This document shows, piece by piece, positions 19,262-28,212 of a stretch of DNA of 64,000 nt. This DNA comes from Parerythrobacter jejuensis (lineage in GTDB: Bacteria; Pseudomonadota; Alphaproteobacteria; Sphingomonadales; Sphingomonadaceae). A program made the position numbers and the translations under genes. Below the pieces are notes generated by a model, which searched no databases, had not been told where the DNA came from, and saw nothing but the letters and a program-made list of their open reading frames with translations. Position 1 is the stretch's first letter. Each line of letters starts with the position of its first letter. The stretch spans positions 1,364,001 through 1,428,000 of the forward strand of contig NZ_BAAAZF010000001.1 of assembly GCF_039536765.1 (NCBI RefSeq), given 5' to 3'.

Positions 19262-19324
19262 TTGGCAACCTGTTTGCGGCCTATCAGCGGATCAGGTATG
19301 TCAGGGGCAAAAGGAGGGTCGGCG

Positions 19325-20239
19325 ATGAAACAGGCGCCCGAGATTTTCGATTATCTCAGCCGCGAAGAGATTGCCACGTTTGGCGAGAAGTCGGACCTGC
19401 GCGCATCGCTGACGCTGGCGATACAGCTGGCCCTGTTTGCCGGCGCGTTCGCATTGGCAATCCTGTGGCCCAACCCGGTTACCATTGTGCTTGCCATCCT
19501 GCTGCTGGGCGGACGGATCCAGGCTTTTGGCGTGATGACCCATGATTGCGCGCACGGCGCGTTCTTCAAGTCCCCCTCGCTCAACCAGTTTGTAGGCAAG
19601 TGGATTGTCGGCGGGCCGGCCCATACGCCGCTGGAGGCGTATCGCCGCTATCACCTCGATCATCATCGCTATGCCGGCACGCCGGACGATCCCGACAAAT
19701 GGATGGTCAAGAACTACCCGATCGCCAAGGCCAGCCTCAAGCGCAAGTTCATCCGTGACCTGACTGGCCAGACCGGCTTTCGTGACCTTGTCCGCGAGGT
19801 GAAGGGTTTCACCTGGTCTGGAAACGGCCCGACCCTGGTGTTTCATGTGACGCTGGCCCTGGTGCTGACAGCCTTGGGCGCTCCATGGGCTTACTTGCTG
19901 TTCTGGGCAGCGCGGCTGTTGGTCTATCCGGCAATCCATCGCCTGCGTCAGATCAGCGAACATGGCGTTGTGCCTGACCGCGACGTTCTAGATGCGCGCC
20001 TTAATACCGGCACCACTATCCCGCGCTGGTGGGAACGGCTGGTCGTATCGCCCTGCAACGTGAACTACCATCTGGAGCATCACATTTTCGCATCTGTGCC
20101 ACCTTACCGGCTCCCCGCCCTTCACCGGCTGCTGGTCGAGCGGGGATATTACCGTGACCATGATTGCATCGCACATGGCTTTGCCGATGTGCTGCGGCGC
20201 GCGACCCGGCCTGACGAAACAACCCCGGTGGCAGCATGA
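19325..20239 (+). CDS. Fatty acid desaturase family protein
   Basis: 304 residues. Start ATG at 19325 with a strong AGGAGG site. Histidine boxes of membrane diiron desaturases are complete: HDCAH (about residue 75), HLDHH (about 110) and HLEHH (about 247). Four membrane helices surround them. It would introduce or modify a double bond in an acyl chain or a related hydrocarbon; the substrate is not readable. The stop overlaps the start of a second, different desaturase-family gene, so both are probably produced together. Confidence 0.85.
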   Translation: MKQAPEIFDYLSREEIATFGEKSDLRASLTLAIQLALFAGAFALAILWPNPVTIVLAILLLGGRIQAFGVMTHDCAHGAFFKSPSLNQFVGKWIVGGPAHTPLEAYRRYHLDHHRYAGTPDDPDKWMVKNYPIAKASLKRKFIRDLTGQTGFRDLVREVKGFTWSGNGPTLVFHVTLALVLTALGAPWAYLLFWAARLLVYPAIHRLRQISEHGVVPDRDVLDARLNTGTTIPRWWERLVVSPCNVNYHLEHHIFASVPPYRLPALHRLLVERGYYRDHDCIAHGFADVLRRATRPDETTPVAA

Positions 20240-21120
20240 ACGTGCATTCGCCAATCCTGCCCGGCAACCTTGCCCAGCTATCGAGCGCGGAACTGACCCG
20301 CCTCGAACGTGAAATCGCGCAGAAATATGCCGGCAAGACGCCGTGGGAAACGGTGGCCTGGGGGGTCCTGATCCCGCTGGTCTGGATTGGCAACGGCGCC
20401 CTGGCACTGACCGGCACGATCCCGCTGTGGCTGGGATTTGTCATTTCTACACTCGCCCTGATGTTCACCTACGCGCCCAATCATGATGCCCAGCATCACA
20501 TCATCGGGCGCAAGGGCACCAAGAGGCATCGCCTTAATGAATTTGTCGGGCACTGGACCAGCTGGCTGCTGGTTCTACCGTTCGAGACCTTGCGGGTGAC
20601 GCATCTCGACCATCATCGCCACACCAATGATCCGCAACTGGATAGTGATATCACGACCCAGGCCCCTACTGCGGCGGCGGCGATCTGGGAATCGGTTCTG
20701 CAACGCCAGCCCAACGGGAAAAGGGCACAGGACTATCGCGCCAGTCTGGAGCGAGCCGGGCGAGAAGATTTGGTCAAGCTGACCGCGCTCTATAAGCTCG
20801 GCTTCTTTGCCAGCCTGTTCACGCTGGCCTGGAACGGGCTGGCGATCGAAGCTTTCGTGCTGTGGTGGCTGCCATACCAACTGGCAATGACATACATCAT
20901 CTTTTTCCTGAGCTGGGCGCCGCACAGCCCCGACATGCCGCAAGGCAAATATCGCGACACCAAGAGCTGGAAATCAAAGTTGGGCGATCCGCTTTCAATG
21001 TGGATGGGATATCACGTGGTGCACCACCTGCACCCCTATATCCCCCTTCTGAAGACCAAGCCGGCCTATTGGGAAATGCGCCCGATATTGGAGGCGCGCG
21101 GGGTCAAGCTGGGGATGTGA
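20236..21120 (+). CDS. Membrane diiron desaturase/hydroxylase, paralog A
   Basis: 294 residues. Histidine boxes are HDAQHH, HLDHHRH and HVVHHLHP, a different arrangement from the gene upstream. It is closely related to the product at 26437-27333: the two share HDAQHHIIGR, THxDHHRHTNDPxLDxDIT, YRDTK and the C-terminal PILEARG segment. The family includes fatty acid desaturases and carotenoid ring hydroxylases, and sphingomonads make hydroxylated carotenoids, so both are possible. The start overlaps the upstream stop (ATGA). Confidence 0.8.
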   Translation: MNVHSPILPGNLAQLSSAELTRLEREIAQKYAGKTPWETVAWGVLIPLVWIGNGALALTGTIPLWLGFVISTLALMFTYAPNHDAQHHIIGRKGTKRHRLNEFVGHWTSWLLVLPFETLRVTHLDHHRHTNDPQLDSDITTQAPTAAAAIWESVLQRQPNGKRAQDYRASLERAGREDLVKLTALYKLGFFASLFTLAWNGLAIEAFVLWWLPYQLAMTYIIFFLSWAPHSPDMPQGKYRDTKSWKSKLGDPLSMWMGYHVVHHLHPYIPLLKTKPAYWEMRPILEARGVKLGM

Positions 21121-24173: not shown

Positions 24174-25130
24174 ATGAGCGAATTTGGTTTCAGCAGCACT
24201 GCAGACGAGGTGCTTGAGGGCAAGGACCTGACCGGCAAGACAGCTTTCATCACAGGCGGCTATTCTGGCCTTGGCAAGGAAACGGCCCGGGCAATGGCAG
24301 CCAAGGGGGCCCATGTCATTGTCGCCGGGCGCGATATCGAGAAAGCCAATACCGCTGCCGAAGAGATCCGCAGCGAGGTAGAGGGCGCCCATATCGAGAC
24401 GATCCTGTGCGATCTCGGTTCGCTCGAGGCGGTCAGGGCATGCGGGGAAGAGGCGCAGCAGCGCTTCGACAAGATTGACCTGCTGATCAACAATGCCGGG
24501 GTCATGGCGTGCCCGAAGGGCGAGACGAGTGACGGCTTCGAAATGCAATTCGGCACCAATCATCTCGGCCATTTCGTGCTCACCAAGCATCTGCTGCCAC
24601 TGGTGGAGAAAGGCGAAGATGCGCGCATCATCAACCTTTCAAGCCGTGGCCATCACCTCGACACGGTTCATCTCGATGATCCGAACTACGAGCATCGCGA
24701 GTACGAGAAATGGCCCGCTTATGGCCAGTCCAAGACGGCCAACATCCTGTTCTCGGTCGGCCTTGCTAACCGGTTCGGCCACAAGGGTATCACCGCCCTC
24801 GCCCTGCATCCGGGCGGGATCATGACCAATCTCGGGCGTCATATGACGGAAGAGGACCTGACCTGGATGCGCAAGCGGATGGAGGACAATGCCAAGGATG
24901 GCGGCGAAGGTCTCAAGACCATTCCCCAGGGCGCAGCCACGACCTGCTTTGCCGCGACCGAGCCAAGCCTTCAGGGCCATGGCGGGCAATATCTGGAAGA
25001 CTGCCACGTGGCCGAAGTTGATGACGAAAGCTCTTCCGGCGGCGTGCGTTCCTACGCGCTCGACCCCAAGACAGCCGACGATCTTTGGGCCTTGTCCGAG
25101 CGGCTGGTCGGCGAGACTTTTTCGAACTGA
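24174..25130 (+). CDS. Short-chain dehydrogenase/reductase
   Basis: 318 residues. Cofactor-binding TGGYSGLGKETA near residue 29 replaces the usual TGxxxGxG form only in detail; NNAG follows at about 105; the Ser-Tyr-Lys set is in NLSSRGHHL and AYGQSKTAN (YxxxK). Length and the long insertion after the active site (HLDDPNYEHREYEKW) match the retinol-dehydrogenase/WWOX-like group, NADP-linked. Substrate unknown. It precedes the sigF unit. Confidence 0.88.
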   Translation: MSEFGFSSTADEVLEGKDLTGKTAFITGGYSGLGKETARAMAAKGAHVIVAGRDIEKANTAAEEIRSEVEGAHIETILCDLGSLEAVRACGEEAQQRFDKIDLLINNAGVMACPKGETSDGFEMQFGTNHLGHFVLTKHLLPLVEKGEDARIINLSSRGHHLDTVHLDDPNYEHREYEKWPAYGQSKTANILFSVGLANRFGHKGITALALHPGGIMTNLGRHMTEEDLTWMRKRMEDNAKDGGEGLKTIPQGAATTCFAATEPSLQGHGGQYLEDCHVAEVDDESSSGGVRSYALDPKTADDLWALSERLVGETFSN

Positions 25131-25152
25131 GGAAATTTTTCTTCCGCCTTGT

Positions 25153-25178
25153 GTAACCGGGCCAGCCCCCCTGCCGAA
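25153..25178 (+). promoter_or_regulatory. SigF-type ECF promoter
   Basis: GTAACC (25153-25158), 16 bases, CGAA (25175-25178) equals the consensus GTAACC-N16-CGAA reported for Caulobacter SigF promoters. It lies 35 bases before the sigF start (25214), so the gene is probably autoregulated. Confidence 0.75.
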
Positions 25179-25213
25179 CTGCCCGGTGTAACTTGCATCG
25201 GGGAGGTGCGCAG

Positions 25214-25744
25214 ATGATTGCAGATGAAGCCACGCTGGCGCAGCTGATGCGCAAATCGCAAGAGGGCGACAAGCGCGCCTATGCGGTGCTGCTGGACGAA
25301 GCTGCAAACTGGCTGCAGCGCTATTTCCGGCGTCGCGTGCCGCCCCATCAGCTGGACGATCTGGTCCAGGAAGTGCTGATGGCGGTGCACAGAAAGCGCG
25401 ACACCTGGGATAGCGAAAGGGCATTCCTGCCCTGGCTGGCTGCCATCGCGCGCTATCGCTGGGTCGACCATCTGCGCAAGGTCTATCGGACCGAAGCGGA
25501 TCAGCTGGAAGACTGGGATGCAGCCGAAGAAAGCAGCGAAGAAGCGGTGCTGGCTCGCCTGAGTCTGGAACGTCTCTTCGTGAAGCTTCCGGAAAAGCAG
25601 GCCGAAGTGATCGAAATGGTCAAAATCGAGGGCCTGTCGATCAAGGAAGCATCGGACAAGACCGGCCAGAGCGAAAGCCTGGTCAAAGTGAATATCCATC
25701 GTGGGCTCAAGAAGCTGTCCACGCTTATCGAGAAGGCAGAATAG
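25214..25744 (+). CDS. sigF: SigF-like ECF sigma factor (oxidative/metal stress)
   Basis: 176 residues from the ATG at 25214, chosen for the GGGAGG site. Region 2 carries DDLVQEVLMAVHRKRDTWD and region 4 (about 120-170) the helix-turn-helix LSIKEASDKTGQSESLVKVNIHRGL. The next gene encodes a six-helix DUF1109 protein, the anti-sigma NrsF of Caulobacter SigF, separated by two bases. Together with the matching promoter this identifies the SigF/NrsF group, known in Caulobacter to respond to oxidants and heavy metals. Confidence 0.88.
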   Translation: MIADEATLAQLMRKSQEGDKRAYAVLLDEAANWLQRYFRRRVPPHQLDDLVQEVLMAVHRKRDTWDSERAFLPWLAAIARYRWVDHLRKVYRTEADQLEDWDAAEESSEEAVLARLSLERLFVKLPEKQAEVIEMVKIEGLSIKEASDKTGQSESLVKVNIHRGLKKLSTLIEKAE

Positions 25745-25746
25745 TC

Positions 25747-26388
25747 ATGAACAGGGCGAACCAGGCATTGATTGCCGAGCTCACCGAAGACCTGCAGCCG
25801 GTCCGGGCCATGAAGGCGCGCGACGGGCTGATGCTGGCCGGATTGGCCGGCGCGATCACGGTGCTTGCGGTCTGGCTTGTGGCCGGATTGTGGGATGGCA
25901 TCGTGACTGGCGAAGCCTCGGCCTTCTTCCTGATCACCAATGGCCTGTTGCTGGTTTTGGGCATTGCCGCGGTCACGGCGGTTGTTGCGCTGGCCAGCCC
26001 CTCGGTCGGAAATCGTCAGGACGGGCCGAAATGGGCGCTGTCGATGATTGCAATCCTGCCTGTTGCCGGGCTGTTTGCCGCCTTGCGGCTGGGTGAAGGG
26101 ATCGGCGCGGCCGTAGACCCTTACGCCTTCCATTGCCTGGCCTCGGGCACCGCCGCATCGGCGCTGACCTTCGTGGCCCTGACCTATTGGCTCAAACGTG
26201 GTGCCCCGGTGTCGACCGAGACGGCAGGCTTGTTCGCCGGGATTGCCTCGGGCGCCATTGGCAGCTTTGCCTACGGCCTGTCCTGCCCGATCGATGGGGT
26301 CACCCACCTTGGCCTGTGGCACGTCTTCCCGATCGCCATCGCCGGTGCTCTTGGCCGGGCCATCCTGCCACGGATCATCCGGTGGTGA
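25747..26388 (+). CDS. nrsF: NrsF-like anti-sigma factor (DUF1109)
   Basis: 213 residues with six membrane helices and a short cytosolic N terminus (MNRANQALIAELTEDLQPVRAM) that would bind SigF. Two conserved cysteines sit in FHCLASG (about residue 130) and LSCPIDG (about 180); in Caulobacter NrsF this pair is needed for redox or metal sensing. Starts two bases after sigF. By family knowledge it holds SigF at the membrane until an oxidant or metal acts on the cysteines. The Cys pair is seen; the signal is inferred. Confidence 0.85.
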   Translation: MNRANQALIAELTEDLQPVRAMKARDGLMLAGLAGAITVLAVWLVAGLWDGIVTGEASAFFLITNGLLLVLGIAAVTAVVALASPSVGNRQDGPKWALSMIAILPVAGLFAALRLGEGIGAAVDPYAFHCLASGTAASALTFVALTYWLKRGAPVSTETAGLFAGIASGAIGSFAYGLSCPIDGVTHLGLWHVFPIAIAGALGRAILPRIIRW

Positions 26389-26436
26389 TCAGCAAAGGAT
26401 TTTGACCTCCCTCGCCCGTTGGTGCAAATTGCGCGA

Positions 26437-27333
26437 ATGGGCGAGGCAGCAGCACAATTGACAGACAGGGCAGGCATCGATCTGTCGCAACTGAGCGACC
26501 GCGAGTTGCGCAAGCTCGAATTACAGATCGCCCGCAAACATAGCGGGATGTTCCCTTGGGGCATTGTGGTCTGGGCCTTCCTGAACCTGGCCGTCTGGCT
26601 CAGCCTGTGGCCGCTCGTATTGCTGGACATTATCCCGCTATGGCTGGGATTTGTTGTTGCCTCCGTCAATCTGTCATTGGTCTATCTGCCGACCCATGAT
26701 GCCCAGCATCACATTATCGGGCGCCCGGGCACGCGGTGGTACTGGCTGAACGAACTGGTCGGCCACGCCACCAGCTGGATGATCCTGACCCCGTTTGAAG
26801 TGTGGCGGATCACCCATATGGACCATCATCGCCATACCAATGATCCGGAACTGGATGTCGACATTACCAGCCATGCAGACAATGGCTGGCAAGCGATCTG
26901 GCGGTCCATCCGGCAACGCCAGCCAGACTCCAAACGGCAAGAGGATTATGCTGCTTCGGTCCAGCGCGCCGGCCGGGAGGATCTCCTCGGCCAAGCCGCG
27001 CTGTTCAAGCTTGGCCATCTGGCATTTCTGTTCGCAATGGCGTGGAGCGGCTATGCGCTCGAGGTATTCCTGCTGTGGTGGCTGCCCTACCACATAGCGA
27101 TCACCTATCTCGTGTTCTTCCTGAGCTGGGCACCGCACAGCCCGAATATGGGCCAGGGTTGCTATCGCGACACCAAGAACTGGCGATCACAGGTTGGCAA
27201 TATCCTGTCGATGGGGATGCAATATCACATCGTCCATCACCTCCATCCCTACATTCCGTTGATGCAAACAGGTGCAGCCTATCGGGAAATGAAGCCGATC
27301 CTGGAAGCACGCGGCTGCAAGCTGGAAATGTAG
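26437..27333 (+). CDS. Membrane diiron desaturase/hydroxylase, paralog B
   Basis: 298 residues from the ATG at 26437; an in-frame GTG at 26422 is the alternative. Histidine boxes are HDAQHH, HMDHHRH and HIVHHLHP, the same as paralog A, and about half of the residues look identical by eye. It begins 48 bases after nrsF on the same strand with no terminator between, so it may belong to the SigF transcript, which would tie a lipid or carotenoid modification to that stress response. Enzyme function is inferred from motifs. Confidence 0.8.
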   Translation: MGEAAAQLTDRAGIDLSQLSDRELRKLELQIARKHSGMFPWGIVVWAFLNLAVWLSLWPLVLLDIIPLWLGFVVASVNLSLVYLPTHDAQHHIIGRPGTRWYWLNELVGHATSWMILTPFEVWRITHMDHHRHTNDPELDVDITSHADNGWQAIWRSIRQRQPDSKRQEDYAASVQRAGREDLLGQAALFKLGHLAFLFAMAWSGYALEVFLLWWLPYHIAITYLVFFLSWAPHSPNMGQGCYRDTKNWRSQVGNILSMGMQYHIVHHLHPYIPLMQTGAAYREMKPILEARGCKLEM

Positions 27334-27396
27334 GGCGCGGCAGGCAGGCGGGCACTACTGCTTCGGAAAGGCCAGTCGCCAGAGGCGCAACAGGTA

Positions 27397-27426
27397 CGGG
27401 GCGGACGGCATCAGCCACCCGCCCCG
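27397..27426. terminator. Possible hairpin between convergent genes
   Basis: Arms CGGGGCGG (27397-27404) and CCGCCCCG (27419-27426) pair perfectly, with a 14-base loop, in the short gap between desaturase B and the ompW-like gene. No T run follows, so termination is doubtful. Confidence 0.3.
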
Positions 27427-27451
27427 GTCCGATGGATATGCATCCAGCATC

Positions 27452-28129
27452 CTAGAAACGAAAACCAAGACCGGCGCTGATCACCCATGGATCGAGCTTG
27501 TGATCCGTGTTGATGATGTTCACGCCGCCAGCATTGAAGTTGGCCGTCGTGTCGACGAAATAGCGCTTCACATCAACGCCCAGCACCATGCCGGTGTCAT
27601 TGAGATCGATGTCGGCACCGGCTTGCAGGACGAAGCCGAACTCGTTCGACAGGTTCACATCATCAATACCAAGCGCGGCAGCATCGGGGCCGACGCCTTC
27701 GTCGAAGATGAAGAAATGCGTTACACCGCCGCCGATATAGGGCTTGAAGCCGGAATCATTGGTCAGGTGAAACTTGCCTGTCAGCGTGGCTGGCAAAACG
27801 ATCGCATTGTTGATCAGGTTGGTTCCGGCAAGGCCGCCGATTCCGTCGACATCGGTCGTGGTGATGCAGCAAATCGTCTCGATCGAGAAATTGCTGGCGA
27901 TGAAGTACTCTGCCGCGATGGTCGGAACGACACTGTCGGTGACATTGGTTTGTGCATCGGCCGGCAAGCCGAACAGATCCGCGTTCACATCGGTGATCTC
28001 GCCATCGGGCAAGACACCCGTGACAAAAGCGCGAACCTGGATGTCACCCGCTTCCTGCGCAGACGCAGCGGACACCGGCAGGGCCATGGCGGCAAAGGCG
28101 CTGGCTGCAAGCAATGATGTCTTCAACAT
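27452..28129 (-). CDS. OmpW family outer membrane protein
   Basis: 225 residues from the ATG at 28129 with a signal peptide ending ASAQ. The mature part shows alternating beta-strand pattern for an eight-strand barrel: PTIAAEYFIASNFSIE, TGKFHLTNDSGFKPYIGGGVTHF, and the final strand VISAGLGFRF ending in Phe, typical for outer membrane insertion. An adjacent Cys pair (ETICCITTT) is unusual for a barrel. OmpW proteins pass small hydrophobic or oxidant molecules. An OxyR-like site lies upstream. Confidence 0.88.
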   Translation of the reverse strand: MLKTSLLAASAFAAMALPVSAASAQEAGDIQVRAFVTGVLPDGEITDVNADLFGLPADAQTNVTDSVVPTIAAEYFIASNFSIETICCITTTDVDGIGGLAGTNLINNAIVLPATLTGKFHLTNDSGFKPYIGGGVTHFFIFDEGVGPDAAALGIDDVNLSNEFGFVLQAGADIDLNDTGMVLGVDVKRYFVDTTANFNAGGVNIINTDHKLDPWVISAGLGFRF

Positions 28130-28212
28130 TTCAAAACCTCTCAAAACTCTCCGTCCGAACACTAAATGAGACTGAGTTACATTGGTGTCATTGAAAGAGA
28201 TGGGCCATATTG

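Follow-up and report, generated by a model that had tools for sequence, protein, structure and literature searches.

A desaturase gene behind the ECF16 SigF/NrsF switch of Parerythrobacter jejuensis is probably a species-specific passenger

In Parerythrobacter jejuensis, the genes for an ECF sigma factor and its putative anti-sigma factor are followed on the same strand by a desaturase-like gene, and the locus raises the question whether this sigma factor commands a membrane-modifying enzyme of its own. We analysed a window of 64,000 bases (bases 1364001–1428000 of a single-contig genome of 2,895,386 bases; positions refer to the window unless stated otherwise). sigF (25214–25744, + strand; alternative open TTG start at 25193) encodes a short protein of 176 residues in which Pfam recognizes sigma-70 regions 2 and 4. 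Two bases past its TAG stop (25742–25744) lies the ATG of nrsF (25747–26388, +), whose 213-residue product matches PF06532 with 135.3 bits (cut-off 26.8) and contains Cys-130 and Cys-180 as its sole cysteines. Forty-eight bases past the nrsF TGA stop (26386–26388), ATG 26437 opens a 298-residue ORF that runs to 27333 (+). We call this gene desA; its product matches the PF00487 desaturase/hydroxylase family with 110.6 bits (cut-off 29.7) and carries three histidine boxes, located by eye as HDAQHH, HMDHH and HIVHH. The string GTAACC-N16-CGAA occurs as an exact match at 25153–25178 (+), 35 bases from ATG 25214 of sigF and 22 bases past the stop of a short-chain dehydrogenase-like gene (24174–25130, +; named by eye), which is syntenic in many relatives. 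Downstream, desA is met by a convergent gene of outer-membrane-like appearance by eye (27452–28162, −). The gene order, spacings and diiron family assignment given in an earlier, sequence-only reading of this DNA are thus all reproduced.

The names used here are family names, because curated cut-offs for narrower functions are missed: NrsF scores 41.2 bits against the NrsF equivalog model NF042994 (curated cut-off 300), and the best curated model for desA, the CrtR β-carotene hydroxylase NF045688, reaches 80.8 bits (cut-off 475). Sequence comparison of desA with solved structures gave no meaningful match, and a structure model built from three sequences (mean pLDDT 49.8) was too poor for a fold search. 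Compared by residue number, the two NrsF cysteines lie near known sensing positions (C131/C181 and C129/C179). In a named-genome collection that holds close relatives only, the one confirmed NrsF relative is that of Altererythrobacter xiamenensis, with 54% identity.

GTAACC-N16-CGAA is the sequence bound by SigF in Caulobacter crescentus (PMC3511200), and a similar promoter motif is given for ECF16 elsewhere (PMC8315932, PMC3420878). Genome-wide, over 2 × 2,895,386 positions, GTAACC-N15–17-CGAA occurs at 24 sites and the reversed string at 35, a raw count that suggested a chance motif; this candidate explanation was overturned by placement tests. From the 24 sites, simple arithmetic gives a chance expectation of ~4e-4 per 100 bases upstream of a given gene. 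Among 86 sigF copies, P. jejuensis included, for which 100 or more upstream bases were available, the motif lies within 300 bases 5′ of sigF in 27 and the reversed string in 0 (one copy was counted twice, hence 26/85). The remaining 59 copies have no motif in that interval; for the 42 of them with at least 1500 bases, it is found within 2.5 kb on either strand in 29 and the reversed string in 1. These 29 divide into 22/23 copies with an MNIO signature and 7/19 without, the MNIO gene near sigF being recognized by a short peptide pattern and checked by Pfam in the copy of genus mate G002 (PF05114, 358.7 bits). In most of the 29 copies the motif sits 0.5–1 kb ahead of sigF, a position that we take to mark the start of a longer operon. 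Within P. jejuensis, 7 of the 23 sites other than that of sigF stand in a clean promoter position, each with its two halves 16 bases apart, compared with 1/30 in the reversed control, from which 5 of 35 sites without a locus were left out. As many as 15/23 of the other sites, versus 29/30 reversed ones, lie inside predicted genes, so the string alone is no promoter mark, and it is by comparison with relatives that the sigF promoter appears credible. Pfam matches and motif placement agree with the earlier claim of a SigF/NrsF unit behind a SigF-type promoter, and the unit at 25153–26388 is an ordinary ECF16 switch. A stable fold is also predicted for 25170–25220, from the −10 region through the sigF start (z −3.5).

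What else might this switch control? Clean SigF-type sites precede trxB (TIGR01292, 385.3 bits; cut-off 343.45) and genes for a thioredoxin-domain protein, a DUF1223 protein, a cysteine-rich ORF together with a DUF6969 protein, an outer-membrane barrel and two membrane ORFs, neither of which matches a family above its cut-off. Membership inferred from promoter position suggests a small regulon, partly of thiol-redox and cysteine-rich character. A second cysteine-rich ORF (L004, genome position 415057) begins 233 bases past an exact SigF motif, and no DUF6969-like reading follows it by eye. The genome itself has 0 matches to PF05114 and hence does not qualify for a bufferin cluster, whereas in G002 an MNIO gene, a cysteine-rich ORF without a match to any Pfam model and a DoxX-like ORF (by eye) lie between the dehydrogenase-like gene and sigF. 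P. jejuensis has therefore retained the SigF/NrsF switch without the enzyme that goes with its usual output, bufferins. In an MNIO-free genome that retains SigF, this candidate regulon of trxB, the thioredoxin-like gene and the cysteine-rich ORF with DUF6969 may matter more than the desaturase link; such a genome makes testable what signal NrsF answers in the absence of bufferins and what role the cysteine-rich proteins play.

The cysteine-rich ORF (95 residues; genome position 2200188–2200472) and the DUF6969 gene lie outside the window, behind an exact SigF motif at genome position 2200130–2201079 (L178/L231). DUF6969 (PF22308) is present at 17 loci (L219–L235) in 16 of 149 family genomes and absent from both genus mates that were sampled for it (G002 and G096); we found no naming of it in the literature searched. 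At 15 of the 17 loci an ORF with at least five cysteines, often in repeats, lies upstream, a count that has no control set for such ORFs, and these ORFs share a similar hydrophobic start by eye. One of the two other loci, in G089, has a weak cysteine-rich match in the right place. By sequence, the 95-residue protein itself is found in 4/149 genomes, P. jejuensis included; it matches neither Pfam nor NCBIfam, and the second cysteine-rich ORF has no NCBIfam match either. At 7/17 loci the upstream 600 bases contain an exact SigF motif, compared with 0 for the reversed string, and 10/17 have no motif. NrsF is encoded in 14 of the 16 DUF6969 genomes versus 61 of the 133 others (Fisher p 0.0025, overstated since the genomes are related). 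In G100 (L060; G100:C4, 192–2903) the cassette, with an exact SigF motif, is divergent from sigF-nrsF; there the 300 bases ahead of sigF contain no exact motif, and a further one, at 2878, stands between nrsF and an ORF that looks CcdA-like by eye. We found no MNIO signature in the 17 DUF6969 flanks examined (up to 1.5 kb), and 4 of the 16 DUF6969 genomes have such a signature near sigF (G023, L049; G041, L098; G114, L066; G121, L084), so the cassette is no simple replacement for bufferins.

One could take these observations to mean that SigF has been rewired in P. jejuensis: with MNIO gone, it would drive cysteine-rich repeat proteins, one of them with DUF6969, and thioredoxin-system genes, and would have gained desA as an extra gene on the sigF transcript, the cysteine-rich/DUF6969 pair acting as a second, MNIO-free thiol or metal buffer under SigF control. 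This reading is weakened by the missing cassette in both genus mates sampled and by MNIO near sigF in some cassette genomes, and we consider it somewhat unlikely.

For desA, the sequence-only reading had gone further and proposed a new output for this group, with retention of the gene triplet in related genomes as a check. NrsF is present in all five genus genomes sampled (P. jejuensis being represented by one strain), and a desaturase gene lies behind nrsF in P. jejuensis only, the triplet being kept in 0/4 other genus members. Across the family, NrsF is encoded at 86 places in 75/149 genomes. We scanned 83 of the 86 places, P. jejuensis included, together with G149, G150 and A. xiamenensis, leaving out G123:C2:59232 and fragments in G067 and G051; loci L010–L039 mostly extend up to 1.5 kb per side, and L089 reaches 190 bases past nrsF. 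Among these loci P. jejuensis is the only one with a relative of desA, desB or desC (the latter two described below) behind nrsF, at a tblastn cut-off of E ≤1e-8 that more distant desaturases would escape. The ORF lists downstream of nrsF, which are crowded with antisense ORFs and show no nrsF ORF at four loci, did not enter these counts. Conversely, desA relatives (E up to 1e-50) are found in 78/397 family genomes, and 0/46 other desaturase loci have the triplet; these 46 are the closest ones plus a few at about 40%, including the third paralogue in P. jejuensis, other weaker ones being left out. By the criterion of the sequence-only reading itself, the lack of triplet conservation refutes desA as an output of the group. 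A sigma factor with its own lipid enzyme would matter only if selection maintained the link, and the triplet is present in none of the other genomes examined.

Where desaturase and sigF do share a neighbourhood, as in 11 relatives, the desaturase lies 3.6–10.1 kb upstream of sigF, beyond an asparaginase-like gene (neighbour named by eye). This is the position taken in the window by a second desaturase, desB (20236–21120, +), which is 60% identical to desA and whose start is overlapped by four bases by a third PF00487 gene, desC (19262–20239, +). In four further relatives (L133–L136) no sigF intervenes in the row of desaturase, asparaginase-like gene and ispG, which ties the desaturase to this place rather than to SigF. 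In the loci scanned, only genus members have desC there, and one of them, G149, has it with both desA and desB absent. On the other side of the switch, the interval after nrsF that holds desA in the window is occupied in L048, L055, L064 and L081 by a convergent gene of ~340 codons that resembles CorA/ZntB-type metal transporters by eye.

How did desA come to stand behind nrsF? In a 51-row desaturase tree, the copies of three genus mates form a group with desB (support 100/100), and desA falls with copies of other genera (G291, G392 and G199) at 91/77, which is not strong support. A clade of desA with the genus desB is rejected (AU p 0.0007), and with it desA as a recent tandem copy of desB; the same clade with G054 added is retained (p 0.295), both groups having been picked after inspection of the tree. 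desA is thus probably no within-genus duplicate, and since the clade with G054 is not rejected, it may either be an old paralogue or have been acquired from a different genus. Base composition (GC 57.7%, GC3 0.72), which is near that of the neighbouring genes, gives no help to a foreign origin.

A further difference concerns a short hydrophobic ORF of ~64 residues, here termed ORF X, which lies within 500 bases upstream of the desaturase in 42/51 rows (L130, L132 and L164 included) and overlaps or almost touches the desaturase start wherever the letters were inspected. It has no Pfam match, and desaturases of this family are likely to have it as a partner. Nine rows lack it, namely those of desA, desB, G054, the three genus mates and three weaker relatives with uncertain starts; the sole ORF X match in the P. 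jejuensis genome adjoins a third paralogue, which is 39% identical to desA.

At the junction itself, the sequence-only reading had seen no terminator between nrsF and desA. This stands for the U-tailed type, of which there is one match, inside desA (1.2 in shuffles), but a strong predicted hairpin that spans the desA ATG (26410–26446, +) had been overlooked. Folding gives −30.4 kcal/mol in a 61-nucleotide frame (z −5.1; 0/200 shuffles as stable) and z −2.8 in a 91-nucleotide frame (3/200 shuffles as stable). The genome holds no second copy, partial matches being limited to at most 26 query bases (E ≥0.67), which rules out a repeat element. Without a U tail, the hairpin is no textbook terminator. 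A consensus scan detected no sigma-70-like promoter in 25100–27500, and no SigF-like site lies within 300 bases 5′ of desA. With no promoter seen before desA, read-through of the sigF transcript is possible, and desA may depend on it. From the fold, the hairpin should hinder translation of desA from such a transcript; it need not stop translation, and the true desA start may sit further in.

These results bear on two further explanations. In the first, that of the sequence-only reading, sigF, nrsF and desA would form one operon, and selection would maintain DesA as an output that alters membrane lipid or carotenoid once SigF is released. The SigF promoter at the head of the unit, the shared strand, the 48-base gap containing neither a sigma-70-like promoter nor a U-tailed terminator, and the intact histidine boxes all accord with this. 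However, the triplet is missing from the relatives examined, the hairpin covers the desA start codon, and none of the 51 desaturase rows, P. jejuensis included, has a SigF-like motif within 300 bases upstream, so that SigF promoters driving the relatives' desaturases are rejected as well; we consider a selected one-operon output unlikely. In the second, desA would be independent of SigF and read from a promoter of another class, located either towards the end of the nrsF coding region or between the two genes. Sigma-70 consensus scans miss many alphaproteobacterial promoters, and the hairpin could act in a desA leader, but the scans found neither type of site, and most of the promoter and leader would need to sit inside nrsF, which makes a private promoter for desA a rather improbable solution.

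We think it fairly likely instead that the locus is an autoregulated ECF16 switch behind which desA has arrived in this species, weakly expressed at most and no conserved output. By analogy with work on Caulobacter and Bradyrhizobium, the NrsF-family membrane protein would hold SigF until its two conserved cysteines are oxidized or bind metal, and the SigF set free in this way would then drive its own operon and a small regulon from GTAACC-N16-CGAA promoters. desA would be a copy of a desaturase whose gene has other positions in relatives, placed behind nrsF in P. jejuensis without the usual ORF X. Some sigF transcript probably runs into desA, so that some DesA could be made under stress, and the hairpin over the start codon would limit translation to a weak addition at most. 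The intact gene with its histidine boxes is probably under selection for something, which counts against a passenger; on balance we infer little translation and no selected role within the switch, of which desA is probably a passenger and no standard output.

How does this locus compare with known systems? In Myxococcus, a plasmalogen made by the desaturase-like enzyme CarF is needed to inactivate the anti-sigma factor CarR, which like NrsF belongs to the DUF1109 group (PMC8156234). A corresponding feedback, in which a desaturase product in the membrane tunes NrsF, is brought to mind by the desaturase-family gene adjoining the anti-sigma gene in P. jejuensis, and we retain it because the CarR/CarF case shows that a lipid can be needed for the response, but regard it as very improbable, as CarF is unlinked to carQRS and little similar to other diiron desaturases (PMC8156234) and nrsF is followed by a desaturase gene in none of the relatives scanned. 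A literature search for NrsF together with "fatty acid desaturase" gave no such report among the matches listed. Closer counterparts are EcfF/OsrA of Bradyrhizobium (PMC3420878) and BcrS/AbcS of Brucella (PMC8315932), both ECF16 systems with a DUF1109/NrsF-type anti-sigma factor carrying Cys-129 and Cys-179, a similar promoter and redox outputs. They differ from P. jejuensis in having methionine sulfoxide reductases among these outputs, and the word "desaturase" is absent from the main texts of both reports. Bufferin gene clusters that include genes for a sigma factor and for NrsF have been described (PMC12452194); relatives including G002 resemble them in the MNIO gene near sigF-nrsF, whereas the P. 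jejuensis genome, without a PF05114 match, does not. The nearest parallel is SigF/NrsF of Caulobacter crescentus, where C131 and C181 are the conserved NrsF cysteines and SigF-dependent genes comprise CC2748, CC2905–2907 and CC3254–3257 (PMC3511200). Both species share sigF followed by nrsF, the GTAACC-N16-CGAA promoter and the two conserved anti-sigma cysteines; P. jejuensis differs in that it has no MNIO gene, in the genes to which its motif sites point, trxB and thioredoxin-like and cysteine-rich genes being some of them, and in the desaturase gene behind nrsF.
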